Assembly: GCF_004358185.1 (NCBI RefSeq)
Contig: NZ_SMUV01000068.1
Coordinates: 1 to 64,000 of the forward strand
Length of the DNA stretch: 64,000 bases
Direction: 5' to 3'
Origin: Antarcticimicrobium luteum
GTDB taxonomy: Bacteria; Pseudomonadota; Alphaproteobacteria; Rhodobacterales; Rhodobacteraceae
The first letter of the stretch is position 1. Every line of letters starts with the position of its first letter. The notes beneath the pieces were generated by a model. It worked only from the letters and a program-made list of their open reading frames with translations, had not been told where the DNA came from and ran no database searches. This document shows, one piece after another, positions 27,136 through 54,607 of this stretch. The position numbers were made by a program, and so were the translations under genes.

Positions 27136-27779
27136 TAAGTCATCGCCTGCGGCTCTTTATCATTTCGCAGTCGATCCCCGGTCTTGAGGGCATCTACGGC
27201 GAAACCGACCGCCGCGCGCTGCAGGCCGGTGCGGGTGTACAGATTTACATGACCCCGCAGGATGATCGCACCGCCGACGTGCTGTCCGCAGCCCTCGGCA
27301 AGCGCACGATCGTGGGCAAGACCAGATCACAGGCAACCGTGCGTAAGCTCTCGGAGAGCGCAAATATTAGCCGTCGCTCGGAAGAACGGGCGCTGGTATC
27401 CCCCGCTGAATTGCTGCGCTTCCCGCTCGACAAGGTCCTTGTCCTGCCTGAGGGGCAATATCCTATCAGGGCGGATCACATCCGTTACTATGCCGACCGA
27501 CATTTTGCGGAGATTGACAAAGCACGGCAGGGGCATGCCTTGCCCTATCCTCCTGCTGCAGCGCCAATCTCGAGCAGGCCGAAGAAGATCAAACTGGAGC
27601 GGCCCTTAGGCAGTGCGCCAGAAGCGATCTCCATGGATGACAAGGAGCTGGAGACTGTCGTGCAGTCCTATGCTGGAGCGCTGCGGGAATATGCAGAGAT
27701 GGCAAAGGCGCGGCCAAAGAGAACGCGGTCAGCTTCCGGCTTTCGGCAAGACACAGCCGAAACTGCCGGAATTTCTTAA
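27130..27779 (+). pseudogene. virD4: C-terminal fragment of type IV coupling protein VirD4
   Basis: From about 27140 the plus frame reads HRLRLFIISQSIPGLEGIYG, then GAGVQIYMTPQDDRTADVLS, PAELLRFPLDKVLVLPEGQY and PIRADHIRYYADRHF. These are the conserved last third of VirD4/TraG coupling ATPases. Walker A and B and the membrane anchor are missing, so it cannot function. A long hydrophilic tail follows. Fragment and VirC1-like piece point away from each other across a junction of a few bases near 27135, a clear deletion or inversion scar. Confidence 0.8.
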
Positions 27780-28484: not shown

Positions 28485-28714
28485 TTGCGCTCGAAATGAA
28501 ACGATCGCGCAACCTGTTCTGTGATGCCGGAGATAAATCTACTTTTGGCGCTGTTTACGCCGAAGGCAGACCTCGCCACTGAACTCAGGTTCGCCATATC
28601 CCCTCCGGGTTGTTGTCTCGGTAAACCAATTCATTTCCCTTTACCGGGTGGAGTACTCTGCTGAGCAGCATTGCGGTACACAGGGTCACATCCGACGCGG
28701 ACCAACAGATCCCT

Positions 28715-29713
28715 TCAGGGAGTCGGGCTATCCGGCACCCACACCTGTTCGACCCCACGCCGCCCGTCCTTCCGCCCAAGCTGTACCACGACGTCGATGC
28801 TGGACGCAGCATAGCGCCTTACCTCCTCAAAACTCATATTGATGCCCACCGACATGACCATGAGGGCAAGGCGGTCGAGCGCCTTCTGCGCGGTATCGGC
28901 GTGAATTGTGGTGAAAGAGCCGGAATGGCCGGTGTTGATCGCGTCGAGGAAGGTCTTGCACTCATCGCCGCGCAGCTCACCAAGAATGATCCGGTCAGGA
29001 CGCATGCGCAAAGAGGTCTCGAGCAACTTGGCCGCGGTGCGTTCGCTTGAGGGGATACGGTCAGCCTTGAGCATCGCGCGATTGGGTTGCGGCGGGAAGA
29101 GCTCAAACGCGTCCTCGATGGTCACGATACGCTCCGTCTCGGTCACCAGCGCGAGAAGCGCCCGAGCAAAAGTCGTTTTGCCCGTGGACGTACCGCCGCT
29201 GATCATGATGTTCAGCCGCTCATCGATGCAGAGTTTCATGGCGGCTCGAATATCCCCTGCCTGGGTCAGTGCGATCACCCGTTCGGCTTTTGCCTGTCGT
29301 TCGGCGTCCAGGTCCACCAGTGCACCGTGCAACAGGCCGATGTCGCTCAAGGTGAGTTGGTCTTCACTATAGCGGCGCAAGGTGATCGACGGCCCGCCAT
29401 CCACGACCGGTGGATAGACGACCTGTGCCCGGATCGGTTTGCCGTTCATCTCGATCTTGCCGGAGACCAGCGGCTTTTTCTCGCTGATCTGTCCGTGGGT
29501 GGCGCTGGCAATGGACGTTGCAAGGTCCCGAGCTTGCGCAGGGGAGTAGAACAGGCCCTCGAGGCCAACCATATGCTCAGCCCCCCGCGTTTCCACCCAG
29601 ACCTTTCCATCGGGATTGATGGCTATTTCGACCACGGCGGGATCGGAGAGCGGTGCAGCCAGCGGTTTTAGATATGTTGAAAGAAAACTGGTTTTTTCTG
29701 CCGCCTGGTTCAT
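28715..29713 (-). CDS. virB11: VirB11-family ATPase of a type IV secretion system
   Basis: 332 aa from the ATG at 29713. The N-terminal domain is followed by the RecA-like domain: Walker A SGGTSTGKTT at 172-181, the His box IHADTAQKALDRLALM, the Asp box VTIEDAFELFPP and LRMRPDRIILGELRG. VirB11 is the hexameric cytoplasmic ATPase that powers pilus assembly and DNA transfer. It appears intact, but most partners are deleted. An upstream GTG at 29794 would add 27 residues reading through an inverted-repeat structure; I prefer the internal ATG. Confidence 0.92.
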   Translation of the reverse strand: MNQAAEKTSFLSTYLKPLAAPLSDPAVVEIAINPDGKVWVETRGAEHMVGLEGLFYSPAQARDLATSIASATHGQISEKKPLVSGKIEMNGKPIRAQVVYPPVVDGGPSITLRRYSEDQLTLSDIGLLHGALVDLDAERQAKAERVIALTQAGDIRAAMKLCIDERLNIMISGGTSTGKTTFARALLALVTETERIVTIEDAFELFPPQPNRAMLKADRIPSSERTAAKLLETSLRMRPDRIILGELRGDECKTFLDAINTGHSGSFTTIHADTAQKALDRLALMVMSVGINMSFEEVRRYAASSIDVVVQLGRKDGRRGVEQVWVPDSPTP

Positions 29714-29730
29714 GGCTGGCCGCCTGTGCA

Positions 29731-29818
29731 TTTCAGGTTTGTGTTGCGTCGAAACACGCTGCCTCTCCCTTCGGTCGAACGCGTGTTTCGACACATGATT
29801 ATTTTGTCGAACCTGAAA
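29731..29818. repeat. Nested inverted repeats between virB10 remnant and virB11
   Basis: Outer arms TTTCAGGTT (29731-29739) and AACCTGAAA (29810-29818) enclose inner arms GTCGAAACACGC (29748-29759) and GCGTGTTTCGAC (29781-29792). All arms are perfect. In intact virB operons these two genes usually abut. The 88-bp structure looks inserted: a MITE-like element, recombination site or regulatory cruciform. Confidence 0.65.
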
Positions 29819-29823
29819 CGCAC

Positions 29824-30205
29824 TTAATAGAACTCGAGATCACGGTCGGCGATCACACTGATCGCAGCACCCGGCTGGACCGAGATAACCGGAGGCAGGG
29901 TGGCATATTCGCCGATCACCGCATCGGTGGCCTGCGCAAAACTGCCCGCGACATCCTCTGCAATTTCTGATCTGGTCTCGGAGCTGGCCTCGGATGCGGC
30001 GATTGCCGGTCCTGCGCCGATGATCGAGAGCAATGCGGCTGTGCCAAAGCGCAGCCCAAAGCGGGAGTTCACGGAGCCCGTCACGCCCGACCGGCCCTGA
30101 TCGTCCGCGCCAAATGCGGCGAGCTGAACCGATTGCCCCTCGGGTGTGACGATGCGTGACCAGCCAACCAGAATGCGGGCCTGGAGGTCTCTGCGGCCTG
30201 TCAGA
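29824..30205 (-). pseudogene. virB10: C-terminal fragment of VirB10
   Basis: About 125 aa. VGWSRIVTPEGQSVQLAAFG, then DDQGRSGVTGSVNSRFGLRF and the closing VISVQPGAAISVIADRDLEF form the C-terminal beta-barrel of VirB10/TrbI proteins. VirB10 spans both membranes and normally has about 400 aa; its membrane anchor and proline-rich part are absent. The fragment begins inside the last codons of virB2, so one deletion removed everything from after virB2 (virB3 to virB9) into virB10. Confidence 0.85.
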
Positions 30206-30490
30206 TCAAGGGGCCGCAAAGCCGTCGATGATGGTCTCGGCCGAAAAGATCAGCACCACGCCGACAAACACGGCGACGAAAATCGGCCAGTTGAGGCGCC
30301 CGAAAAACATCATGACACCGGACCCCACGAGAGCGAGCACGCCGAGGCCACGACCGATCGGACCCGTCACCGCGTCGATGATGTTGTCGATCATGTCAGA
30401 GACGGGGCTGAGGTCCTGCGCGAGCGCCGGGGCGGCGGCCAACATCAGCAACGCGGCCAATGCCGCCCGGGTATAGTCAATACGTTTCAT
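30206..30490 (-). CDS. virB2: VirB2-type pilin
   Basis: 94 aa. A long signal peptide ends ALAQ-DLSPV. Two hydrophobic helices follow ([39 protein letters not shown]) separated by a short polar loop, the TrbC/VirB2 layout. VirB2 is the major T-pilus subunit. The ATG overlaps the virB1 stop. The final residues come from the deletion junction with virB10, so the extreme C-terminus may not be original. Confidence 0.88.
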
Positions 30491-31149
30491 ATCTGGTCTC
30501 CGATGGATTGGGCATAGACGGCCATGACCTTGCGGACATGGCCTTGGGTTTCGCGGTAGGGGGGCACACCGCCGTGACGCGCCACGGCTTCGGGGCCGGC
30601 GTTATAGGCCGCGAGCGCAAGCTGCGGTGTGCCGAAACGATCAAGTTGTGTCAGCAAGTAGCGGGCGGATCCATGCAGGTTTTGCTCAGAATCATGCGGA
30701 TCGACTCCAAGCACGCGCGCGGTGTCCGGCATCAACTGCCCAAGCCCGATTGCGCCGACATGCGACCGCGCGCCTGGATCAAATGCGCTTTCAATAGCGA
30801 TGTTGGCGCGAAAGAATGCAAGCCAGTCGCGAGAGGTCATCCCGGCCCTGCGCAGGGCCGGGTGGTCCGCATAGACCGAGCCCACATCGAGGATCATAGC
30901 CTCGATTTCGGGACAACCTGATGGGACCTGAGATTTAGAAAGTCGTGGTGAAGAAAGAGGGGCTACCTCAGCACGTGCGACAACGTCGCTTTGCTCGGGT
31001 TGAGGCCTTGCGAAGTCGAGAACGCTGCTGGTCAGTCGACCAGCACGCTCTGGAGCATCGAGATCGATAACGGATTGTGCATAAGAGGAAGGGCCTGAAA
31101 GACCCCAGAGAACGAGGCTAGCCGCTGATAGGATACCTTGTCGTCTCAA
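30487..31149 (-). CDS. virB1: VirB1-type lytic transglycosylase
   Basis: 220 aa with a signal peptide ending SSYAQ. The SLT domain starts near residue 110: the catalytic Glu120 in [15 protein letters not shown], followed by [20 protein letters not shown] and [20 protein letters not shown]. It opens the peptidoglycan for T4SS assembly. It is the first conserved gene of the collapsed virB operon and overlaps both the upstream hypothetical gene (32 bp) and virB2 (4 bp). Confidence 0.92.
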
Positions 31150-42628: not shown

Positions 42629-43551
42629 TAGTCCAAATCTCCCATCAGGCTGCCGAGCAGTTTCAGAAGGTAAGTCACTATAATGATCGTGCCGAGCACG
42701 GTCACGACTGCCATGGCCGCCGCGTGGCCAATATCGAAGCTATAGAAAACGCTCTGATAGATCAGGAAGGGCACGTTAGTCGTTGCAGTGCCGGGCCCAC
42801 CTTGGGTCAGCATGAAAATGACATCAAACTCGTTGACGATGAAAATCGATCCGAGCAGAGCGCTGAGTTGCAGGTATTTTTTCAAATGCGGCAGAACGAC
42901 AAAGCGGATTTCACCCAACGGACCGGCGCCGTCCATGCGGGCCGCCTCTCGCTGGTCGTCGTCGAGCGCCTGAAGCCCGGCAAGGATGATGATCATCATG
43001 AACGGGGCCCAGCGCCAAACCAGCACAGCCACGACCGAAGCGACTGGATACATCCCGATCCAGTCGATCGGGGCGGCGCCGAATTGCCGGACGATCCAGT
43101 TAACCACGCCAAAGATCGGGCTAAGAACCGTGTATTTCCAGGCCAGCGCCCCGATGATCGGCATGATCAGGAACGGCGTGATCAGCAGAGTGCGCACAAT
43201 ACCACGGCCAAAGAAACGATCGTGGACCAGCAGCGCATATATCAATCCCACCAGCAGCGACAGAAGCACTGCTCCGACTGTGAAGGTCAAGGACGTCACA
43301 ATCGAGTCCAGGAACCGTGTGTCCCGGACAATGTCGACGTAGTTGCCGAACGCGTTGAACGCGGTGTTCTCTGGTCGTTGGAGGTTCCAGCGAAACAGGC
43401 TGTAGATGACTGTCAGGATGAATGGCGCCTGCGTGACGACGATAACGACGAGGAGGGCCGGCGCAATGAGCGGATTGCGCCAGATCCACAACCCGAACCG
43501 CCCGAGGATCGGAATGCGCCCGAAAAGGGCCGGATTGGCTTCTGAAGTCAT
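42628..43551 (-). CDS. ABC transporter permease, MalF type
   Basis: 307 aa, six membrane segments. The EAA loop is REAARMDGAGPLGEIRFVVL followed by PHLKKYLQ. LTQGGPGTATTNVPFLIYQS is the typical CUT1 permease stretch. It pairs with the MalG-type subunit. It is separated from the binding-protein gene by about 100 bp containing a strong hairpin, which probably lowers permease expression relative to the binding protein. Confidence 0.9.
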   Translation of the reverse strand: MTSEANPALFGRIPILGRFGLWIWRNPLIAPALLVVIVVTQAPFILTVIYSLFRWNLQRPENTAFNAFGNYVDIVRDTRFLDSIVTSLTFTVGAVLLSLLVGLIYALLVHDRFFGRGIVRTLLITPFLIMPIIGALAWKYTVLSPIFGVVNWIVRQFGAAPIDWIGMYPVASVVAVLVWRWAPFMMIIILAGLQALDDDQREAARMDGAGPLGEIRFVVLPHLKKYLQLSALLGSIFIVNEFDVIFMLTQGGPGTATTNVPFLIYQSVFYSFDIGHAAAMAVVTVLGTIIIVTYLLKLLGSLMGDLD

Positions 43552-43607
43552 CTATACCGCCTCATTCATGATTGTTGCAGCCGGACCGCTGCCTGTGAAA
43601 AATAGGT

Positions 43608-43644
43608 GCGCGCGCCCGGGCAAAGCAGGGGCCGGGGCGCGCGC
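43608..43644 (-). terminator. Strong hairpin between binding-protein and permease genes
   Basis: On the minus strand, GCGCGCGCCCCGG pairs with CCGGGCGCGCGC. The stem of about 12 bp is followed downstream by ATTTTTC. It lies 8 nt after the binding-protein stop. It fits partial termination or 3' protection in an ABC operon. Confidence 0.6.
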
Positions 43645-43652
43645 TTTGTCGC

Positions 43653-45029
43653 CTAGTTCTTGTAGCCGCCGTTCACGGCCACGTCCTCGGCATACTGCTG
43701 GCATTTGGCGATCGCCTCGTCGGCGGTCTGCTGGCCAACCACAGCGCCGGAGAACTCCTGCGTGCACCGGTTGCCCAGGTCCTGGAATTCCGGGATCTGG
43801 ATGTACTGGTTGCCGGTGTACGGCGTGTCGTCGTAGTGGGTGCCATTCACCCCGTCGACGGTTGCCAGCGTCCGGTCTAGGACCGCCATGAACGGCGTGG
43901 CGAACTCCGAATAGGGCGAGCCGTCCTCATACTGCGACTGGCGCGCCGGTCCGGGCATGTTGCCCCAACCCTTGATCGGGGCGGCGTAGGGGATGTAGTC
44001 GGGCCCCGTCACCCATTTGATGAAGGCCAGCGCCGCCTCTTTGTTGTTGGCGCTGGTGGGGACCGCCCAGGCCCAGGTCCAGAACCAGGCGCTCGGTTTA
44101 CTGCCCGCCTCCTTCACCGGCGCCATCGCGACTGCCATGTTCTCGGCAAAGGGGTTGGTGTTCGGATCGAAGAACACCTGGGACCAGGAACTGTCGTCGA
44201 ACAGCATTGCCGCCTGGCCGGTGGTGATCGCCTGGCCGCATTCCTGATTGCCAAACTGGGTAACCCCCGGCGGCGTCGCACTCTGCAAGGTATCGATGTA
44301 GAACTTGATCGCGGCGGAGGTCTCCGGCGACGTGATCTGGGCATTCCAGTCCGCGTCATACCAGCGCCCGCCGAATGTGTTGATCACCGTTCCGAGCGGG
44401 GCACCCATCTGCCCCCAGCCGGGAAGGCCGCGCAGGCACAGACCATACTGGCCCGACGCCGGATCGTGCAGTTGGCTGGCGATCTCGACCACCTGATCCC
44501 ATGTCGGGGCCTCGGGCATCGTCAATCCCGCGGCATTGAGCCGATCCTTGCGGTAGTAGAGCATCGAGGCCTGCGCGCTGCCGGGGGCCGCGTAGAGCTT
44601 CCCGTCATGGCTAAGGCCGTTGAGATAGGCTTCGAACACGTCATCGGCCTCATAGGCCGGATCGTCCATGATCTCGTCAAGTGGCTCCAGCCAGCCGGTG
44701 CGGCCCCACATCGGCACCTCGAACGGCCCGGTCGTGATCAGGTCATAGATGCCGCTCTGGGTCGTGACATCGGTGGTGATCTTGGCCCGGACCTCGTTTT
44801 CCGGGACCAGCTGGAATTCCACGTCGATGTCGGGATAGAGCCGGTTGAACTCCGGCAGAAGATCCTTCAGCGCCACGAACTCGGCATTGTTGACGGCGCC
44901 TATGACCAACCTGCCGCTTTGCGCAAAGGCGTCCTGCGCGCCGAATCCGGCAACCAGAATTGTTCCTGCGGCCAGAGCCGCGCGGAGCACTCCGCCGCTC
45001 GTCCTCTTTCTTCCAATAACAGTCAACAT
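43653..45029 (-). CDS. ABC transporter sugar-type substrate-binding protein
   Basis: 458 aa from the ATG at 45029, with GGGAGG 8 nt upstream; the longer frame is rejected. The signal peptide has basic GRKRTSGG, hydrophobic AALAAGTILVAGFGA and cleavage at AFAQ. The mature protein is a family 1 (MalE-like) binder: LLPEFNRLYPDIDVEFQLVP, GKLYAAPGSAQASMLYYRKD and KPSAWFWTWAWAVPTSANNK. It delivers a sugar, polyol or sugar acid to the two permeases. Aromatic richness fits carbohydrate binding. Confidence 0.9.
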   Translation of the reverse strand: MLTVIGRKRTSGGVLRAALAAGTILVAGFGAQDAFAQSGRLVIGAVNNAEFVALKDLLPEFNRLYPDIDVEFQLVPENEVRAKITTDVTTQSGIYDLITTGPFEVPMWGRTGWLEPLDEIMDDPAYEADDVFEAYLNGLSHDGKLYAAPGSAQASMLYYRKDRLNAAGLTMPEAPTWDQVVEIASQLHDPASGQYGLCLRGLPGWGQMGAPLGTVINTFGGRWYDADWNAQITSPETSAAIKFYIDTLQSATPPGVTQFGNQECGQAITTGQAAMLFDDSSWSQVFFDPNTNPFAENMAVAMAPVKEAGSKPSAWFWTWAWAVPTSANNKEAALAFIKWVTGPDYIPYAAPIKGWGNMPGPARQSQYEDGSPYSEFATPFMAVLDRTLATVDGVNGTHYDDTPYTGNQYIQIPEFQDLGNRCTQEFSGAVVGQQTADEAIAKCQQYAEDVAVNGGYKN

Positions 45030-45299
45030 GATCGTATCCTCCCTTTGGGTTCTTGTCATTTCTCGGTTCAATTTGATTCTGCGCGATACTCTGTCACCTC
45101 TTGACGGCGTCGCGGTCGTCGCGGTCGATTCGCGCCACCCAGTCCGACCCTGCTGGCAGAGCCGGTGCACCCGATCATGGTGGCCGACAGAGCTCGCGGA
45201 TCCTTTTCCGCGTTTTCCGGTCGATCGCCATTCGGTGTTCCATTTCTTCAATCCCGTGTCGTAGCATTGGCTGTCGCGTCTGCTGTCTCCGCAGCTCGA

Positions 45300-46310
45300 T
45301 CAGTTCCTTCGCGGTAACGCGTTGCCGGCGGCATCGAAGCGGTGGATTCTGTTCGCGTCGGGGGTCACGAAGACGGTGTCGCCGAAGTTGACGGCCAACT
45401 CGCCCGCCACGCGCACAGTAAGCGGCCCTGCGCCAGACACGTTGACATGCAGAAATGTGTCTGAGCCCAGATGCTCCACGATTCCGACGGCGCCCTGCCA
45501 GGCCCCGGCGTCCTTCGACAGCGCGATGTGTTCCGGCCGCACGCCGATCGTTGCCGCATCGTGTTGCGCTGCTTTTTCACCAGTAATGAAATTCATTTTC
45601 GGAGAACCTATGAAGCCGGCGACGAACAGGTTGCGCGGCTGGTTGTAGAGCTCCATCGGAGAGCCGACCTGCTCAATGATGCCGCTGCGCAGAACCACGA
45701 TCTTGGTTGCCATGGTCATGGCCTCGACCTGATCGTGTGTGACATAAATCGCGGTCGTTTGGAGGCGCTGGTGAAGCTCGGAGATTTCCAGTCGCATGTT
45801 TACCCGCAGGGAGGCATCCAGGTTGGAAAGCGGTTCATCGAACAGAAATGCTTTGGGCTCCCGCACGATCGCACGGCCGATGGCGACACGCTGGCGCTGA
45901 CCGCCGGACATTTGGCCGGGGCGCGCATCGAGATGGCCCGTCAGGTTAAGTGTTTCGGCGACCGTCTCGACCTTGCGGGCGATCTCCGCCTTGCCGATTC
46001 CCGCCATTCGCAGCGGGAAGCCGATATTCTCTCGTACCGTCATGTGCGGGTAAAGCGCGTAGGATTGGAAGACCATGGCGAGTCCGCGCCGCGCGGCGGC
46101 AACCTGCGTCACGTCGGTTCCATCGATCGCCACCGACCCGGACGTCACGTCCTCCAGCCCCGCGATAAGGCGCAGCAGCGTGGTCTTGCCGCAGCCAGAC
46201 GGGCCAACGAAGACGACGAACTCGCCCTCTTCGATATGCAGATCCAGCGGCGGTATCACCTCCAGCGCGCCGAAATGCTTGGTCACTTTGCTTATTGTGA
46301 TACTTCCCAT
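45300..46310 (-). CDS. ABC transporter ATPase, MalK/UgpC type
   Basis: 336 aa. Walker [10 protein letters not shown] is at 36-44, the signature is [16 protein letters not shown], Walker B is [15 protein letters not shown], and the switch His is in [13 protein letters not shown]. The C-terminal TOBE/regulatory domain (residues about 235-336, with [12 protein letters not shown]) is the MalK type. It powers the MalFG-like permeases downstream; a 270-bp gap without genes separates it from the binding-protein gene. Confidence 0.92.
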
Positions 46311-46503
46311 CGGTCAACTCCCGGCGCAGTGGCCAATTGGTGCGTTTCTCCGGCGCGCGTTCTCGCACGACGGTCTTACTCGGTGCGAAGGATTGGCGGG
46401 CATTTCGCCAAGGCGGGCGCACCATGTCCGCCGGGCCCGTTGCGGCACGGCGCCGGCTGTCTGAAACCTGTATTTCGCTTTGCTGAACGTCACGGGAGCC
46501 TCG

Positions 46504-48288
46504 CTAGTGATTGTGGCGCGGCGGTGTGCACACGACCTGGCGGAACCGAACAGCATCTTCGATCACCGCGCCATCGCGCAACTGGCCGACGGTCTGGCGG
46601 TAGAGCGCCTGCCAGGGCGTCTGGCTTTCGGGCACGGCGGGCGTGGTGCCCTCCTCGCCCCGCCTGAGAAACTCCTCGTCGGACAGCAGCGCGTCGCAAC
46701 GCCGCGTGTTGAGATCAACGCAGATCCGATCGCCGGTGCGCAGCAGGCCGAGATTGCCACCGGCGGCGCTCTCTGGCGAGGCGTTCAGGATCGACGGGCT
46801 GTCCGATGTGCCCGACTGCCGGCCATCACCGATTGTCGGCAGGCTGGTGATACCCTGACGCAGAAGCGCGTCGGGCGGCTGCATGTTCACCACTTCAGCC
46901 GATCCGGGCCAGCCAAGCGGCCCGGCGCCGCGGATCACCAAGATCGTGCCCTCATCGATCTCGAGCGTCGGATCGTTGATGCGGGCGTGGTACTCCTCGG
47001 CACTGTCGAATACGACGGCGCGACCCTCGAACACACCTTCCTGACCGGGGCGGGACAGGAAGCGGCGGCGGAACTCGTCTGAAATCACGCTCGTTTTCAT
47101 GATCGCGAAATCGAACAGGTTGCCTGACAGGACCATGAAGCCCGCCCGCTCGCGCAGTGGCTGGTCATAGGGCCGGATAACGTCGCGGTCGCGGGCCTCG
47201 CGGCCGTCAAGGTTCTCGCCCAGTATCCGGCCGGTCACGGTGAGCGCATCGGGGGCGATCACACCGGCCTGCATGAGTTCCCACATCACCGCCGGCACGC
47301 CGCCGGCGCGGTGAAACCGCTCGCCGAGATAGCGCCCTGCGGGCTGGACATCGGCAAGAAGCGGCACGTCGTATCCGTGCGTCTGCCAGTCGTCGGGGGA
47401 AATCTCGACCCCGGCATGACGGGCGATTGCCACAAGATGCGGTTGCGCGTTGGTCGATCCGCCGAGCGCGGAATTGGTCACGATGGCATTCACGATGGCC
47501 GCACGGGTCAGGATCTGCGACGGGCGCAGGTCCTCGTCCACCATCTCGACGATCCGTCGGCCGGTTCGATAGGCCATCTGCCCGCGTTCGCGATAGGCGG
47601 CGGGGATGGCGCCACAGCCGGGCAGCGACATGCCCAACGCCTCGGCCAGAGAATTCATCGTCAGCGCCGTGCCCATGGTGTTGCAGTGCCCCGCCGAAGG
47701 AGCGCTGTCGGCGGCGCGGGAGATGAATTCGTCCTCGTCGATTTCGCCGGCGGCCAGTTTGCGCCGACTTTGCCAGATAACGGTGCCCGAGCCGACCAGC
47801 TTGCCGTCATGCCAGCCGTCAAGCATCGGACCGCCCGACAGGACGATCGCCGGGATATCCACCGTCGCCGCGGCCATCAGCGCCATCGGCGTGCTCTTGT
47901 CGCAGCCCGTGGTCAGCACTACGGCGTCGAGCGGATAGCCATGCAGGATCTCCACCAGCCCCAGGTAGGCGAGATTGCGGTCGAGCGCCGCGGTCGGGCG
48001 GCGGCAGTTCTCGAAAGTGGGATGCACCGGGAATTCCAGCGGTATGCCGCCGGCATCGCGGATGCCGTCGCGCACCCGGCGGGCAAGATCGATATGGATG
48101 CGGTTGCACGGGTTGATGTCGCTGCCGCTCTGGGCGATGCCGACAATCGGCTTGCCCGACCGTAGCTCTTCAGGCGTGAGCCCGAAATTCATGAACCGCT
48201 CGAGGTAGAGCGCCGCCATGTCGATGCGCTCGGGATCGTCGAACCAGTCCTGCGAACGCAGCCGATGTTTTTTCGTTTGGCCGGTCAT
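46504..48288 (-). CDS. IlvD/Edd-family sugar-acid dehydratase
   Basis: 594 aa, full length. The iron-sulfur ligands are Cys61 (SGSDINPCNRIH), Cys129 (TTGCDKSTP) and Cys202 (SAGHCNTMGTA), spaced as in L-arabinonate and D-xylonate dehydratases. LGGSTNAQPHLVAIARHAGV and the C-terminal NASPESAAGGNLGLLRTGD support that subfamily rather than IlvD. It removes water from an aldonate to give a 2-keto-3-deoxy acid, the first step before the FAH-family protein and the semialdehyde dehydrogenase encoded 5 kb away. Its stop overlaps nothing; its start overlaps the previous gene by 4 bp. Confidence 0.9.
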   Translation of the reverse strand: MTGQTKKHRLRSQDWFDDPERIDMAALYLERFMNFGLTPEELRSGKPIVGIAQSGSDINPCNRIHIDLARRVRDGIRDAGGIPLEFPVHPTFENCRRPTAALDRNLAYLGLVEILHGYPLDAVVLTTGCDKSTPMALMAAATVDIPAIVLSGGPMLDGWHDGKLVGSGTVIWQSRRKLAAGEIDEDEFISRAADSAPSAGHCNTMGTALTMNSLAEALGMSLPGCGAIPAAYRERGQMAYRTGRRIVEMVDEDLRPSQILTRAAIVNAIVTNSALGGSTNAQPHLVAIARHAGVEISPDDWQTHGYDVPLLADVQPAGRYLGERFHRAGGVPAVMWELMQAGVIAPDALTVTGRILGENLDGREARDRDVIRPYDQPLRERAGFMVLSGNLFDFAIMKTSVISDEFRRRFLSRPGQEGVFEGRAVVFDSAEEYHARINDPTLEIDEGTILVIRGAGPLGWPGSAEVVNMQPPDALLRQGITSLPTIGDGRQSGTSDSPSILNASPESAAGGNLGLLRTGDRICVDLNTRRCDALLSDEEFLRRGEEGTTPAVPESQTPWQALYRQTVGQLRDGAVIEDAVRFRQVVCTPPRHNH

Positions 48289-49217
48289 CGCGTTTCTCGG
48301 CTCCTCTGCTCCGAAACCGCCGCAGCAGCACCCGGGCCCGGCTGCACCGCCTGGTCCAGCGCGAGGATCAGGCCCGAATGGTCAACGTCGCCCTGTCGCT
48401 CGATCAGCCGTGCAAAAGCGTCTTCGAGCACCCCGCTGAACGGCAGGGAAAGCCCGAGTGTCGCGGCATGTCGCCGGGCGTTGCGGATGTCTTTCAGATG
48501 CGTACTCGACCGACCGCGCGGCGTGAAGTCGCCGGCGATCATCCGTGGCGCATATTGAGCAAGGACCGTGCTACCGGCCAGCCCGCCACCGATGAGGTCG
48601 ACAAACCGCTCGAGATCGAGGCCGCCTGTCCGGGCGAGCGCCAGCCCCTCGGCGACGCCGCCGATGGTCAGGCCCACAATGATCTGATTGGCCAGCTTCG
48701 CCACTTGGCCGGCGCCCGAGGGCCCCAGATGCAATGCCCTCCCCAGCGGTGCGAATATCGGGCGGGCGCGATCAAAATCCTCTGCCGCGCCGCCCACCAT
48801 GATTGCAAGCCGCCCCGCTTCGGCACCGGAGGTGCCGCCGGACACCGGCGCATCGAGGTGGCGCAGGCCGAGCGTGGCCAGCCGGTCCGCATGTTCGCGC
48901 GCCTCGAACGGCGCGATTGAGCTCATGTCGATAGCAAATGCGTCGGGCGTCATCGCCTCGGCCGCGCCGCGAACGAAGAGCACATCCTCGACGGCGGCAC
49001 CGTCGGTTAGAATGGTGATCACCACATCGGCCCCGCGCACCGCCTCGTGAACGTCCCGGGCGATCCGAAGGCCGCTGCAGTCGATGCGGTCGAATGCGGC
49101 GGGACTGCGGTTCCACACCGTGACCTGCCCGAAGGCATCGGCCAGGCGCCGCGCCATCGGCGCGCCCATCAGCCCCACTCCCAGCAGAGCGATCGATGTG
49201 TTTGCCGCGCCGCTCAT
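48285..49217 (-). CDS. Beta-hydroxyacid dehydrogenase (3-hydroxyisobutyrate / L-threonate dehydrogenase-like)
   Basis: 310 aa. The Rossmann GxGxxG is in IALLGVGLMGAPMARRLADA; the substrate loop DAPVSGGTSGAEAGRLAIMV and the catalytic Lys in GQVAKLANQIIVG follow the family. Members reduce tartronate semialdehyde or oxidise 3-hydroxyisobutyrate or threonate. The start at 49217 is chosen because its ATG overlaps the preceding TGA; a GTG at 49226 is possible. A Hyi-like isomerase in the divergent operon fits a threonate/tartronate-type side branch. Confidence 0.88.
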   Translation of the reverse strand: MSGAANTSIALLGVGLMGAPMARRLADAFGQVTVWNRSPAAFDRIDCSGLRIARDVHEAVRGADVVITILTDGAAVEDVLFVRGAAEAMTPDAFAIDMSSIAPFEAREHADRLATLGLRHLDAPVSGGTSGAEAGRLAIMVGGAAEDFDRARPIFAPLGRALHLGPSGAGQVAKLANQIIVGLTIGGVAEGLALARTGGLDLERFVDLIGGGLAGSTVLAQYAPRMIAGDFTPRGRSSTHLKDIRNARRHAATLGLSLPFSGVLEDAFARLIERQGDVDHSGLILALDQAVQPGPGAAAAVSEQRSRETR

Positions 49218-50155
49218 GCCTCGCACCCGGCGCGCTTATGCGCGATCAGCGCCATCAACTTGCGGTCGCGCCAGCGTTGCCGCTCGCCCAGCAGGTCGCG
49301 CGGGAGCCGCTCGGCGCGGGCCTGCTCCAGATCGTCCACTAGTGCGCCGCGCCAGGGGACCGGATGCTGATCCTGCGCGATGCGCTCATAGGCCAGACCA
49401 TAGCGCCCGATATAGTCGCGAATCCCACCCGGCGCGTTCAGGTCGATCGTTTCGAACGGGCCCATGAACGACCAGCGCAGGCCGAGCCCGTCACGCACAC
49501 CGGTATCGACGTCCTCGGCGCTGGCATAGCCCTCGGCAACAAGCCGGAAGGCTTCGTGCAGCAAGGCGCCCTGCAGGCAATTCATCACGAAGCCTTCCGC
49601 CTCTTTCTTCATCACGATCGGGGCCTGGCCGCAGCCGCGCATCAGCTTTGACGTGCGCTCGACGGCTTCGACGTCTGTCCAGGGCGCCGGCACGATCTCA
49701 ACCGCGGGAACGAGATAGGGCGGATTGATCGGATGGACGACCAGGCAGCGGTGGCGACCTGGCAGGCCCTCGGTAAAGCGTGAGGGCAAAATTGCCGAGG
49801 AAGAACTGGCAATCACTGCGCCGTCTCCGGCCGCCGCGTCGAGCGCAGCGAAGACCTCGCTCTTGGCCTTGACCCGCTCGGGCGTGCATTCCTGTACATA
49901 TACCGCCCCGTCGAGCGCGCGCTCCAGATCATCTGTCGGGACAATCCGATGCGTCACTGTCGATTCGGTCTGGCCGCTCAGAAGATCGTGCGCATGCAGC
50001 CCGGCAACCAGATCGCCAATCTCGGAAAGCGCAGCATCGAGCACCGAAGCGTCCGTGTCATACAGGTGCACGTCATGACCTGCCCGCGCAAACGAGATTG
50101 CCCAGCCGCGTCCGACAATGCCCGCGCCAACAATGGCAATCTTTTCTTTGGTCAT
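49214..50155 (-). CDS. 3-hydroxyacyl-CoA dehydrogenase-family protein (L-gulonate 3-dehydrogenase/lambda-crystallin-like)
   Basis: 313 aa from the ATG at 50155, which follows AGGGGAGAG. NAD site: IAIVGAGIVGRGWAISFARA. Catalytic residues sit in VVHPINPPYLVPAVEIVPAP, with the motif GFVMNCLQGALLHEAFRLV. The short single-chain form is that of L-gulonate 3-dehydrogenase and L-carnitine dehydrogenase, not of fatty-acid enzymes. In this sugar-acid context an aldonate 3-dehydrogenase is plausible. It is the first gene of the minus-strand operon, divergent from hyi. Confidence 0.85.
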   Translation of the reverse strand: MTKEKIAIVGAGIVGRGWAISFARAGHDVHLYDTDASVLDAALSEIGDLVAGLHAHDLLSGQTESTVTHRIVPTDDLERALDGAVYVQECTPERVKAKSEVFAALDAAAGDGAVIASSSSAILPSRFTEGLPGRHRCLVVHPINPPYLVPAVEIVPAPWTDVEAVERTSKLMRGCGQAPIVMKKEAEGFVMNCLQGALLHEAFRLVAEGYASAEDVDTGVRDGLGLRWSFMGPFETIDLNAPGGIRDYIGRYGLAYERIAQDQHPVPWRGALVDDLEQARAERLPRDLLGERQRWRDRKLMALIAHKRAGCEA

Positions 50156-50212
50156 ATCTCTCCCCTGCCTTTCGGTCACCGCGCGCCGTTTTGTGCGGCG
50201 CAACTCTGGTTG

Positions 50213-50226
50213 ACTGGTCTACCTGT
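50213..50226. promoter_or_regulatory. Candidate FadR/GntR-type operator
   Basis: ACTGGTCTACCTGT is a near-palindrome with the GGT-N2-ACC core that GntR/FadR regulators favour, 58 bp upstream of the minus-strand operon. TGATACCA (50227-50234) and its complement TGGTATCA (50446-50453) flank the rest of the divergent region. Confidence 0.4.
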
Positions 50227-50531
50227 GATACCACCTTTCTTGATTCTCCAGGCCCTGTCAAGCACTCAAAATTTTTCCTTTCTGCGCGCCGGAGTGTACT
50301 CAGGTCTTGAACGGAATGGCACCAATACACTGTTAAAATTACCTTTTCTTGGCCATATCTTCTTTTGATCGATAAAGAATATCATTGCATATCGTGGCCG
50401 GAATAACCCCTTACTTGACAGGATACAGCGCTTCTCGTACGACCTTGGTATCATAATTATAGCGATGATCGCGCGCATGCTGTTCTGCAAGCAGGTCGAT
50501 CTTCGGCCAGATCACGGACGCGAGTACAGCC
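50227..50531. other. Divergent regulatory region of about 300 bp
   Basis: An AT-richer stretch between the minus-strand dehydrogenase operon and the plus-strand isomerase gene. No gene is seen. It contains the separated TGATACCA/TGGTATCA half-sites and probably both promoters. Confidence 0.45.
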
Positions 50532-51314
50532 ATGCCCCGTTTTGCTGCCAACCTGTCGATGATGTTTCCCGAGAGCCCTTTCACCGATCGATTCGCATGT
50601 GCCGCACGCGATGGTTTCGAGGCGGTCGAGTTCTTGTTTCCCTACGAATGGCCCGCCGCCAAACTGGCCGACCGGCTATCCGAGCACGGGCTCACCCAGG
50701 CCCTGTTCAACCTGCCGCCCGGCAATTGGGAGTGGGGCGATCGCGGCCTTGCTTGCCGGCCCGAACGCGGGGTCGAATTTCGTGAAAGCGTTGATCTGGC
50801 TCTGGAATACGCGCGCGCGCTCGATTGCCCGCGGCTCCATGTAATGGCCGGGCTGGTCGCGGATCGCGACGACCGCGAAGCACTGCACACGACCTATATC
50901 GAGAACCTGCGCCTTGCTGCCGACCGCGCCGCAGCGCAAGGGGCAACGGTGCTTGTCGAACCGCTCAACCCGCATGATATGCCCGGATATTTCCTGGCGA
51001 GCGTGCCGCACGCGCTCGATGTCATTGCCGAGGTCGGCCGGCCCAACCTGAAACTTCAGGCCGATATCTACCACATGCAGCGCATCCAGGGCGAGCTGGC
51101 CAGCACCCTCGCAGACCATATCGACGTGATCGGACACGTACAGATCGCCGATACGCCTGGCCGGCACGAGCCCGGCACCGGCGAAATCAATTACCCGTTC
51201 CTGTTCGCAACTCTTGACCAGCTTGGTTACGACGGCTGGGTCGGCTGTGAATATCTGCCGAGCGGCGGTGCGGGCAGCGCGTCGGGCTGGATGCGTGATT
51301 GGCGCAGACACTAG
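50532..51314 (+). CDS. Hydroxypyruvate isomerase-family protein (Hyi/OtnI-like)
   Basis: 260 aa, TIM-barrel of the AP-endonuclease-2/xylose isomerase superfamily. It starts MPRFAANLSMMFPESPFTDR; metal-binding residues lie in VLVEPLNPHDMPGYF, LQADIYHMQRIQG, VIGHVQIADTPGRHEPGTGE and WVGCEYLPSG. Hyi interconverts hydroxypyruvate and tartronate semialdehyde; OtnI acts on 2-oxotetronate. A beta-hydroxyacid dehydrogenase in the divergent operon would reduce its product. It is monocistronic or joined to the GntR gene (100-bp gap). Confidence 0.88.
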   Translation: MPRFAANLSMMFPESPFTDRFACAARDGFEAVEFLFPYEWPAAKLADRLSEHGLTQALFNLPPGNWEWGDRGLACRPERGVEFRESVDLALEYARALDCPRLHVMAGLVADRDDREALHTTYIENLRLAADRAAAQGATVLVEPLNPHDMPGYFLASVPHALDVIAEVGRPNLKLQADIYHMQRIQGELASTLADHIDVIGHVQIADTPGRHEPGTGEINYPFLFATLDQLGYDGWVGCEYLPSGGAGSASGWMRDWRRH

Positions 51315-51413
51315 CGCCCCGGACGCGCAATCGCGCGATACCGGAAAGCGGACTTCCGGCACGGTCGGTTCGAGGTTAACGTAGAACTTTAGAAAAAGAG
51401 GCAGCGCAAAGGC

Positions 51414-52139
51414 ATGGGTCGAAACGACATTCGCCGCAGAAAACTTTACGAGGAAATTGCGTCCGAGATCGAACGGCGGATTCACGCCGGCGATTACGCG
51501 CCGGGAGATCATCTGCCCTCGGAGCGCAAGATCATGGAAGAATTCGGGGTCGGGCGCCCGGCAGTGCGCGAAGCCCTGTTTGCATTGAGCAAAATGGGCC
51601 TCGTCCTGATCAGGAGTGGCGAGCGCGCCGTCGTCACCAGTCCCACGCCGGACGTGCTTATCCAGGAATTGTCCGGCGCAGCCCGTTCGCTGATGGCCAC
51701 CAGGGACGGCGTGCGCATGTTCCAGGATGCTCGAGTTCTGCTCGAAGTCGCGCTGGTTCGTCACGCGGCCGTCAATGCCACGCCGGACGACATCGCAGAG
51801 CTCAAGGAGGCGCTGGACGCGAACCGAGTGGCGGTGAACGATCGGCATCGCTTCAACGAAACCGACAATGCCTTTCACGCCCAAATCGTTTCGATCGCGC
51901 GCAATACGGTGATCGATGCGACCTACAGCGGCCTGTCTGAATGGCTATTCGAGCAGCGCCAGATCGCCATGCTGCACCCCGGGTCTCCGCAGCATGCCGT
52001 CGAGGCCCACACCCGCATCTTCGAGGCGATCGCCGCCAAGGACCCCGACGCCGCCGAGGCAGCGATGCGCGCGCATCTTGACGGCGTGATCAAACAATAC
52101 TGGTCGGTCTGGGAGGCGCGTCTTTCCCTGACCGAATAG
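51414..52139 (+). CDS. GntR/FadR-family transcriptional regulator
   Basis: 241 aa. The winged HTH (residues about 8-75) contains IHAGDYAPGDHLPSERKIME and GVGRPAVREALFALSKMGLV. The helical FCD effector domain follows, with metal/ligand residues in ARVLLEVALVRHAA, NAFHAQIVSIARN and HTRIFEAIAAKDPDAAEAAM. FCD regulators of this type respond to sugar acids or organic acids. It lies inside the locus and probably controls both the divergent minus operon and the plus-strand Weimberg genes. Confidence 0.92.
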   Translation: MGRNDIRRRKLYEEIASEIERRIHAGDYAPGDHLPSERKIMEEFGVGRPAVREALFALSKMGLVLIRSGERAVVTSPTPDVLIQELSGAARSLMATRDGVRMFQDARVLLEVALVRHAAVNATPDDIAELKEALDANRVAVNDRHRFNETDNAFHAQIVSIARNTVIDATYSGLSEWLFEQRQIAMLHPGSPQHAVEAHTRIFEAIAAKDPDAAEAAMRAHLDGVIKQYWSVWEARLSLTE

Positions 52140-52354
52140 CGGCCATCATCTCCCCGGCCGGCCCGCCATCACCGGCGACGGGCGATACACACTGCACGGT
52201 CCGGCCAGCCGCAAGCCACGCGGGATTTCCATGCAGAAGCCAGCATTCCGTCTTGACTCAAGCGTCGTAGCGCGAAAAAACTGGTATGAAAGGTAGGCCA
52301 ATGCGTTGGGGAAGTCTCACGATAGGCGGCGCGATGCGCGGCGTCACGCCCAGG

Positions 52355-52385
52355 CCGGTACATGGCCGCTGCGGCCATGTACCGG
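52355..52385. promoter_or_regulatory. 31-bp near-perfect palindrome upstream of the plus-strand catabolic operon
   Basis: CCGGTACATGGCCGC (52355-52369) and its exact complement (52371-52385) are separated by one base. It ends 41 nt before the GTG start of the acetamidase-family gene. It is too tight for a good terminator loop and has no T-run, so an operator or cruciform is favoured. Confidence 0.6.
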
Positions 52386-52426
52386 GGAAACCATCGCAGG
52401 CAACCAAGGCACAGGGAGGTAGCACA

Positions 52427-53443
52427 GTGCATAGACCGTTCGAGGAATCGTCCTGGCTTTCGGGATCCATCATGCGCGCCCGCGGGGCGGCGCAAGGCCG
52501 TGTCGGCCGCACCCACCGGCTCGATGAAGCCGCGCAGAGGGACTTCAAATACACGCTTGGCCCATACGCCGATCCGGTGCTGGAGGTCGCGCCCGGCGAC
52601 CGTATCGTGGTCGAAACGCTGGATGCATTCGGCGGACGCATCCGCTTGGAAAGCGACCGGCCGTCCGAGATCCTCGAGATGCCCTTCGGCAACCCGCAGA
52701 ATGGGCCGATCCGGGTCGAGGGCGCGAAGAAGGGCGACGTTCTGGCGATCTATATCGAACGGATCGTACCGCGCGGCGATCAGCCCCGGGGCACGACCTG
52801 CCTGATCAACGAGCTCGGCGGGCTGGTCGGCACTGACGTCACGGCGATGCTGAACGATCCGCTGCCCGAGAAAGTACGCAAGGTCGTGGTGGACGAGAAC
52901 TGGGTCTACTGGAGCGACCGTCTTCGCCTGCCCTACGAACCCTTCATCGGCACGATCGGGCTTTCGCCACAGATCGATTCGATTAGTTCGCTGGTGCCGG
53001 CCAGCCATGGCGGCAACATGGACCTGCCTGAAACCCGGCCGGGCAATGTCATTTACCTGCCGGTACGTGCCGAAGGCGCATACCTGTTCCTCGGCGACGT
53101 TCATGCGACTCAGGGTGATGGCGAGCTTTCGGGCAATGCCATTGAGCACCCCAGCGAAACCACGATCGTCGTCGACCTGATCCGCGACTGGCAGATCAAC
53201 TGGCCGCGCATCGAATCCGAAGACCGGATCATGTCAGTCGGCAGCGCCCGGCCGATGGAGGATGCCGCGCGCATCGCCTATCGCGATCTCGTCGAATGGA
53301 TGGCCGATGAGTTCGGGCATGATCGGCTCGAGGCCTACATGCTGCTGAGCCAGTGTGGCCGGGTGCGGTTGGGCAACATGGTCGACCCGAACTACACGCT
53401 GTCTGCCGGGATCGAGAAGCAGCACCTGTTCGGCAATGTCTGA
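52427..53443 (+). CDS. Acetamidase/formamidase-family protein
   Basis: 338 aa from a GTG at 52427, preceded by GGGAGG 7 nt upstream; upstream in-frame ATGs lack sites and would read through the palindrome. Family blocks are LGDVHATQGDGELSGNAIEH, PASHGGNMDLPETRPGNVIY and TIGLSPQIDSISS. It is shorter than the second family member in this window (36082-37410) and lacks the zinc ribbon. As first gene of an operon with the Weimberg enzymes it may open an amide or lactam derivative of a sugar acid; the substrate is unknown. Confidence 0.85.
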   Translation: MHRPFEESSWLSGSIMRARGAAQGRVGRTHRLDEAAQRDFKYTLGPYADPVLEVAPGDRIVVETLDAFGGRIRLESDRPSEILEMPFGNPQNGPIRVEGAKKGDVLAIYIERIVPRGDQPRGTTCLINELGGLVGTDVTAMLNDPLPEKVRKVVVDENWVYWSDRLRLPYEPFIGTIGLSPQIDSISSLVPASHGGNMDLPETRPGNVIYLPVRAEGAYLFLGDVHATQGDGELSGNAIEHPSETTIVVDLIRDWQINWPRIESEDRIMSVGSARPMEDAARIAYRDLVEWMADEFGHDRLEAYMLLSQCGRVRLGNMVDPNYTLSAGIEKQHLFGNV

Positions 53444-53470
53444 GCCGACACGCACCACGGGAGGTGAATG

Positions 53471-54607
53471 ATGAGCAATCCCCTTACGCATGGCACGCTT
53501 CTGGGGCGGGTCTGGCGGCCCGGCATCGGGCCCTGCGTCGTGACGGTTCGGGACGGCGCGGTGGTGGACATCACCTCGAGCGCCGCGCCCACCGTACGCG
53601 ACGTCTGCGAATTGGACGACCCCGCCGCCCATGTCCAGGCCGCGCCGGGCGACGCCTTGGGACCGCTCGCCGATCTTCTGGCGCAGGACGCCGACGAGGG
53701 CGACGCGCTGCGCCTGCTGGCGCCCTGCGACCTTCAACCGATCAAGGCCTGCGGCGTGACCTTTGCCGGCTCGATGATCGAGCGCGTGATCGAGGAGCGC
53801 GCCGCCGGCGACCCGGCCCGCGCCGAAGCGATCCGCGCCCGCGTCGGTGCCGCGATCGGCCAAAGCCTTCGCGCAATCCGCCCCGGCTCGCCCGAGGCGT
53901 CGACAGCCAAGGCGGCGCTGATCGCCGAAGGGCTCTGGAGCCAGTATCTCGAGGTCGGGATCGGTCCCGACGCCGAAGTCTTCTCCAAAGCACAGGCGCT
54001 CTCTTCCGTCGGCCAGGGCGCGCGGATCGGGCTGCACCCGGCATCGGCATGGAACAACCCCGAACCCGAGGTGGTTCTGGCGGTCTCCTCGGCCGGCCGG
54101 ATCATTGGCGCGAGCCTCGGCAACGATGTCAATCTGCGCGATATCGAGGGGCGTTCGGCGCTGCTTCTGTCGAAGGCGAAAGACAACAACGCCTCCTGCG
54201 CGATCGGCCCGTTCATCCGCCTATTTGATGACGGCTTCACACTGGACGACGTGCGGCAGGCCGAGGTTGCACTGACGGTCGAAGGTCCGGATAGCTTCGT
54301 GCTGAAGGGCCATTCTTCTATGGCTGAAATCAGCCGCGACCCGGCGGATCTCGTCTCTCAGGCGATCGGCCGTCATCACCAGTATCCCGACGGGCTGATT
54401 CTGTTTCTCGGGACGCTTTTCGCGCCAACCGAAGACCGCGACACCCCGGGCGGCGGCTTCACGCACAAGATCGGCGACGTGGTGACGATCGCCTCCGAGG
54501 GGCTGGGGGCGCTCCGCAATACCGTCGATCTTTCAACGAAATGCCCCGAATGGACCTTCGGCGCCCGCGCGCTGATGGCGAATCTCGCGCACCGCAAGCT
54601 GATCTGA
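53471..54607 (+). CDS. Fumarylacetoacetate hydrolase-family 2-keto-3-deoxy-pentonate dehydratase (XylX/AraD1-like)
   Basis: 378 aa; the ATG at 53471 has GGGAGG at 6 nt, and one three bases earlier is less well spaced. FAH-fold landmarks: KACGVTFAGSMIERVIEERA, the metal-ligand stretch HPASAWNNPEPEVVLAVSS, and SLGNDVNLRDIEGRSALLLS with KDNNASCAIGP. This subgroup dehydrates 2-keto-3-deoxy-D-xylonate or -L-arabonate to alpha-ketoglutarate semialdehyde. It lies directly before the gene for the enzyme that oxidises that product (13-bp gap). Confidence 0.85.
   Translation: MSNPLTHGTLLGRVWRPGIGPCVVTVRDGAVVDITSSAAPTVRDVCELDDPAAHVQAAPGDALGPLADLLAQDADEGDALRLLAPCDLQPIKACGVTFAGSMIERVIEERAAGDPARAEAIRARVGAAIGQSLRAIRPGSPEASTAKAALIAEGLWSQYLEVGIGPDAEVFSKAQALSSVGQGARIGLHPASAWNNPEPEVVLAVSSAGRIIGASLGNDVNLRDIEGRSALLLSKAKDNNASCAIGPFIRLFDDGFTLDDVRQAEVALTVEGPDSFVLKGHSSMAEISRDPADLVSQAIGRHHQYPDGLILFLGTLFAPTEDRDTPGGGFTHKIGDVVTIASEGLGALRNTVDLSTKCPEWTFGARALMANLAHRKLI

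Follow-up and report, generated by a model that had tools for sequence, protein, structure and literature searches.

The analysed window, a stretch of 64,000 nucleotides at the start of an Antarcticimicrobium luteum contig, carries a shortened virB locus (28715-31149 and 27150-27635) with a complete virB11 followed by a virB10 remnant, virB2 and a transglycosylase gene. The virB10 stretch matches residues 372-490 of a VirB10 of 490 amino acids, VirB3, 4, 5, 6, 8 and 9 were not found in the window, TraG is present as a fragment and the plasmid matches to the window switch near 30176-30184. The locus is a deletion remnant in which everything from virB3 through most of virB10 has gone. The same genome has a second virB operon, which is complete, on contig C39 (L239, about 43300-54500), and its proteins are 92-98% identical to those of Roseovarius sp. 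AK1035.

Between the virB10 remnant and virB11, a sequence-only reading had described nested perfect inverted repeats of 88 bp, placed where neighbouring genes normally touch and resembling a tiny transposable or recombinase-recognised element. The repeats at 29731-29818 are real: the 9-base outer arms are exact (TTTCAGGTT at 29731-29739 and AACCTGAAA at 29810-29818), as is the 12-base inner arm. With one mismatch allowed, the outer arms extend to 14 nt and the inner arms to 15 nt, each at 93% identity (Table 1). The pattern of ends plus inner arm occurs once in the window and in none of 100 shuffles, and the RNA of the minus strand has a folding energy of -53.4 kcal/mol (z -8.1), a value equalled by 0 of 200 shuffles. 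The size was underestimated, as the inserted unit measures 111 bp instead of 88 bp, and the location between virB10 and virB11 was given correctly, with “virB10” here denoting only the C-terminal part of the gene. On the minus strand, the tip of the apical hairpin P3 (core, about 29768-29774) reads SC(GNA)GS, which we take to be the motif that characterises d(GCGNAGC), a mini-hairpin of very high stability.

Table 1. Features of the virB10-virB11 junction in the window (window coordinates).
Feature	Position	Strand	Basis or remark
Inserted unit, 111 bp	29713-29823	-	Filled/empty alignment and annotated gene coordinates; missing from two sister plasmids (L008, L009)
Family covariance model match, 95.3 bits	29724-29825	-	Model made for the + (“core”) strand; the - strand would be the RNA
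Outer stem P1, arm one	29726-29739		Repeat search, alignment
Outer stem P1, arm two	29810-29823		Repeat search, alignment
Inner stem P2, arm one	29745-29759		Repeat search, alignment
Inner stem P2, arm two	29781-29795		Repeat search, alignment
Conserved 27-base core, CGCTGCCTCTCCCTTCGGTCGAACGCG on +	29757-29783		Identical or nearly so across many genera
Small apical hairpin P3, within core	29764-29778		Pair swap C-G/G-C between copies
virB10 remnant, C-terminal 131-aa ORF	29824-30219	-	Stop at 29824-29826 adjoins the element
virB11, downstream gene	28715-29713	-	ATG start at 29711-29713

Insertion into virB operons

In two sister plasmids, of Pseudosulfitobacter sp. DSM 107133 and Sulfitobacter pontiacus OXR-199, the flanks are about 95% identical to those of the window and the junction is exactly 111 bp shorter, so the hairpin unit of the window is an insertion, as had been proposed. 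At these empty sites the stop codon of virB10 and the start codon of virB11 share one base (TGATG), so that the two genes overlap by 1 nt. Plasmids of Marinibacterium and Phaeobacter P73, which are less closely related, have an empty junction as well. BLAST with a 1.8-kb virB10-virB11 query matched 429 records, 34 of them over at least 80%, and a search with the element itself found it at full length at this junction in 34 plasmid records, mostly near-identical P. pseudonitzschiae plasmids.

Clean filled and empty pairs were determined at four virB junctions, namely virB10-virB11, virB8-virB9 (filled in contig C39 by a diverged element; empty in Roseovarius AK1035, Marinovum and P. pseudonitzschiae pSMR1-4), virB4-SLT (filled in AK1035; empty in C39, Marinovum and pSMR1-4) and virB5-virB8 (filled in Marinovum and pSMR1-4; empty in AK1035 and C39). 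These sites demonstrate that the element is mobile. Target duplications, which the sequence-only reading had suggested looking for, were not evident by inspection at the four junctions, where the flanks differ by a few bases and duplications of 1-3 nt could escape notice. In several virB operons one junction or another is empty, or the element is missing entirely. Neither of the refuting conditions named in the sequence-only reading holds: the structure is not conserved in all orthologous virB operons, the junction being empty in L008-L011 and others, nor is it absent everywhere else, as copies are dispersed beyond the window. In another virB lineage (L235 and L236, 2971-3073; Ruegeria THAF33 and Phaeobacter G2), a differently flanked copy lies at virB10-virB11 and virB10 runs into it; this copy seems to have inserted there independently.

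A dispersed hairpin family

Genome searches bore out that the hairpin is part of a dispersed mobile family. The 27-base core recurs, at 100% identity or nearly, in many genera in a DNA search of 295 genomes of the bacterial family, a search that scored 2 candidates per genome and in which chance accounts for most of the 177 of 295 genomes with a match at E<=1. Nearly every copy flanks the core with an outer and an inner inverted repeat of differing letters, and the members are about 93-111 bp long and non-coding. The copy in the window has the ends GTGC/GCAC, whereas most copies have AGCG/CGCT. The ends TTTCAGGTT/AACCTGAAA do not form a fixed recognition sequence: the stems vary and compensate, and what the copies have in common is the core and the fold. 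No insertion sequence with the same conserved terminal inverted repeats was seen, a result that covers the varying arms of the aligned copies and the arm matches listed for the amplified genome G012 (see below).

The fold is supported by covariation. In a MAFFT alignment of 27 copies (A2), which is independent of the covariance model fit, 91.7% of cells are paired, 22 of 28 pairs are changed on both sides and the covariation score is 0.430 versus 0.121. A second alignment (A5) comprises 103 covariance-model matches with E up to 1e-8 (100 distinct rows, from 100 loci chosen from L001-L234 plus the window). It gave 93.6% paired cells (75.3% in shuffles), with both partners changed in 24 of 28 pairs and covariation of 0.443 versus 0.119, falling to 0.05-0.12 when the partner was shifted by 1-3 columns; being fitted to the model, A5 leans towards the model structure, and the MAFFT alignment agrees with it. 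One P3 pair within the core swaps C-G (62 of 100) for G-C (35 of 100), and in other subfamilies the P3 hairpin is longer and differs in its letters. Rfam 15 gave 0 matches up to E 1 for window positions 28500-31000 and, for 16 further loci, only tRNAs and two sub-threshold matches elsewhere.

Family copies matched by the covariance model number two in the A. luteum genome, both in virB operons (window and contig C39). Matches at E<=0.001 occur in 17 of 61 genomes of the bacterial family, this one included, with one to at least 64 copies each. The highest number belongs to genome G012, with at least 64 near-identical copies in unrelated flanks (L074-L093 among them), forming a sister subfamily with a different core, the same architecture and sharp ends TATAGC..GCTTTA; arm matches there number 147, against 0 for a reversed-pattern control. 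Two of them lie only 29 nt apart (C1:250387-250429) and look like an internally deleted copy. A longer element with the same ends was absent among the 100 of the 147 arm matches that were listed, and BLAST of the G012 element against plasmids gave no match. The core scan of species genomes found at least 120 stretches, almost all in Rhodobacterales among the matches listed, where the exceptions are single Hoeflea and Neomegalonema MAGs; one viral contig also matches the family.

The proposal of a recombinase-recognised element found no counterpart, as no recombinase could be linked to the family. RAYT/Y1 transposase was rejected as mobiliser because its distribution does not track the family: across the 61 genomes PF01797 is present in 7, the element in 17 and both in 3, and PF01797 is absent from G012 and from the A. 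luteum genome. Family members were also seen on two plasmids between a DUF736 gene and a relaxase gene (L232:8008-8112 and L233:2558-2662). Their match to the window extends into its left flank (TGG.TGGC), which suggests that these copies and that of the window may derive from a related source unit. Phaeobacter sp. G2 carries one copy upstream of a relaxase gene and another at virB10-virB11.

Position relative to genes and the candidate RNA strand

Placement was analysed for 55 non-redundant copies (below 85% identity), with expectations from random positions. A gene on the proposed RNA strand stops at the RNA-5' edge in 24 of the 55 copies (1.0 expected), in 21 exactly at the edge, and an opposite gene ends at the other edge in 14 (1.0 expected); 13 copies have stops at both edges and 15 lie inside an ORF, compared with 41.8 expected. 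Among 175 listed core copies, which include some places under two identifiers (for example window/L043, L030/L045, L035/L046, L033/L149 and L031/L164), crude contexts were convergent in 49, divergent in 8 and “inside” in 58, many of the last owing to spurious ORFs. Near virB genes lie 41 of the 175, corresponding to about 36 distinct places (L001, L002, L013 and L014 left out as duplicates). All share one orientation, a constancy that counts over only four junctions and has a chance of 1 in 8. Two copies occur in one virB operon in L120, L131 and L140, and away from virB the genes that terminate at the element can lie on either strand.

Stems that function as RNA should tolerate G.U pairs on the transcribed strand, which would show up as A.C on its complement. 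Stem mismatches on the core strand comprise 95 A.C versus 35 G.T, the former corresponding to G.U on the virB-sense strand opposite; p is 1.4e-7 for the raw counts and 3.7e-4 when sequences are grouped into 35 clusters at 80% identity. The asymmetry fades under stricter clustering (p 0.05 at 18 clusters and 0.58 at 8); a vote by cluster gave 11 to 2 with 5 ties, and within the virB copies alone it is slight (17 versus 11). The two strands do not differ in consensus folding energy (-24.54 and -24.60). The asymmetry points, not decisively, to an RNA from the strand opposite the core, the sense strand in all virB cases.

Comparison in place showed how copies changed after insertion. At virB5-virB8 (15 distinct sequences) differences amount to 1.4% in the core, 3.7% in P2 and 6.0% in P1, versus 27-29% in the spacers and a median of 12.7% in the flank on the virB5 side. 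Core and stems are far less changed than the spacers, which indicates that the structure is kept after insertion. At virB4-SLT (6 distinct sequences) the core, P2 and P1 differ by 2.2, 3.3 and 5.4% and the spacers by 5.9 and 20.7%, and we conclude from these sequence comparisons that in-place constraint is present at both junctions. At the window's own virB10-virB11 junction (5 sequences) the values are 7.5% for the core, 12.1% for P2, 7.7% for P1, 15.6 and 23.9% for the spacers and 3-7% for the flanks, so that constraint is weak here; in relatives the inner stems are damaged on the sense strand. A flank value of 0.713 in the in-place comparison is artefactual, as the sequences were compared without gaps. 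Gene conversion between copies could be an alternative source of core homogeneity. Compensatory pairs within one junction number 1 at virB5-virB8 and 0 at both virB4-SLT and virB10-virB11; with hardly any compensation within junctions, the covariation arose mainly between lineages of copies.

Discussion

The explanation we favour, and to which we give about an even chance of being correct, is a MITE/REP-like mobile stem-loop that is transcribed in sense with virB and acts as an intercistronic mRNA hairpin. A nested hairpin of about 100 bp (P1, P2 and the 27-nt apical core with P3), belonging to a mobile family that would span the Rhodobacterales, would have inserted directly behind the virB10 stop in an ancestral roseobacter plasmid. 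Transcribed in sense with virB (the minus strand in the window), the putative hairpin could protect the upstream message or end its decay, or could serve as an RNase site, and would alter the ratio of upstream to downstream virB products. As the virB operon of the window is truncated, any effect of the copy there may be vestigial.

The strongest competitor, in our estimate rather unlikely, is a selfish MITE/REP-like palindromic DNA that is moved in trans by a transposase, survives only behind stops and has no function in cis, its core being needed by the transposase or a single-stranded DNA intermediate. Such an element would fit the clean insertions at virB junctions, the slight in-place covariation, the shunning of gene interiors and the amplification in G012, where near-identical copies lie in unrelated flanks, arm matches far exceed the control and the ends have TA termini like those of bacterial MITEs. 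It does not account for the constraint on core and stems at virB5-virB8 and virB4-SLT, held across many genera while the spacers drift, or for ends that vary and compensate, unlike the fixed terminal inverted repeats recognised by transposases. Neither target duplications (by inspection, at four junctions) nor, among the listed arm matches in G012, a longer element with the same ends were seen, and Y1/RAYT is absent from that genome. A site acting at the DNA level, a cruciform or single-strand hairpin spread by plasmids and used by the conjugation machinery or a nucleoid or recombination protein, would suit the equal folding energies of the two strands, the frequency on conjugative plasmids, which account for 20 of 28 and for 19 of 23 matching records, and the copies between DUF736 and relaxase genes. 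We hold it to be improbable, since 134 of the 175 listed copies lie away from the virB queries, the A.C/G.T asymmetry favours one RNA strand and the copies abut exactly on stop codons.

The same position at gene ends, often between convergent genes or with stops at both edges, might bring to mind a bidirectional transcription terminator or insulator, yet within virB operons this would silence required downstream genes and the aligned copies have no U-run after the outer stem. An intrinsic terminator was rejected on the latter ground, and termination or insulation in general seems highly improbable. A chance inverted repeat is virtually inconceivable, given that 0 of 200 shuffles fold equally well and that homologues carry compensating changes. 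Integron attC sites, which end in RYYYAAC ... GTTRRRY, were likewise rejected, as by eye neither the ends in the window nor those of most copies fit.

Intercistronic stem-loops that set the stability of mRNA segments and the ratio of products are known from puf of Rhodobacter and the malE-malF REP. These hairpins, which are fixed or of REP type in contrast to the mobile nested hairpin described here, may offer a working model for the intercistronic mRNA hairpin that we favour. By its description, the best-studied parallel to the family would be ERIC/IRU (enterobacterial repetitive intergenic consensus, 127 bp), likewise a small non-coding mobile intergenic stem-loop repeat. PMC2229807 describes ERIC as co-transcribed with its neighbours, with an orientation-dependent effect on the stability of upstream mRNA and a proposed RNase E site. 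The present family is set apart by stems that differ and compensate around a conserved apical core, by its occurrence in another taxon and by repeated insertion into virB operons. RUP of Streptococcus pneumoniae, a 107-bp MITE, is similar in being about 100 bp, palindromic and intergenic and, for our amplified lineage, in its TA ends; RUP has terminal inverted repeats like those of IS630-Spn1 and inserts at TA (as treated in PMC2229807), whereas the present family yielded neither a matching insertion sequence nor, by inspection, a target duplication. CIR of Caulobacter and Brucella is also an alphaproteobacterial intergenic repeat with conserved RNA structure (PMC2229807), but it is made up of two separate arms and a linker and carries a GANTC motif, in contrast to the single nested hairpin and the GANTC-free core of the window. 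Finally, Br-REP1 and Br-REP2 of Bradyrhizobium lie in 3'-UTRs, also between convergent genes, and come with small transcripts (PMC5082802). They resemble our family in this placement and differ in length (about 20-40 nt), consensus and bacterial order, with no common core by eye. By analogy, the family would work like ERIC/REP-type repeats, yet it lacks the fixed common termini of MITEs. No description of it was found in the literature searched, and this mobile hairpin family of about 100 bases in marine Rhodobacterales is apparently undescribed so far.

To judge from the comparisons in place, the folded shape seems to be kept in virB operons and may tune the expression of neighbouring genes. 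A bolder form of the intercistronic mRNA hairpin, which we put forward only tentatively and think somewhat unlikely, is a transposable RNA regulator: a sense-strand mRNA element behind stop codons, kept by selection, that would re-set the stoichiometry of type IV secretion and would have rewired at least four virB junctions. If our overall reading is right, Rhodobacterales would possess unnamed mobile hairpins, conserved in structure and repeatedly recruited into conjugation operons. The natural series of filled and empty virB junctions on near-identical plasmids would then make the effect of a mobile stem-loop on expression and transfer directly measurable, and a new covariance model would become available for the annotation of marine roseobacter genomes.
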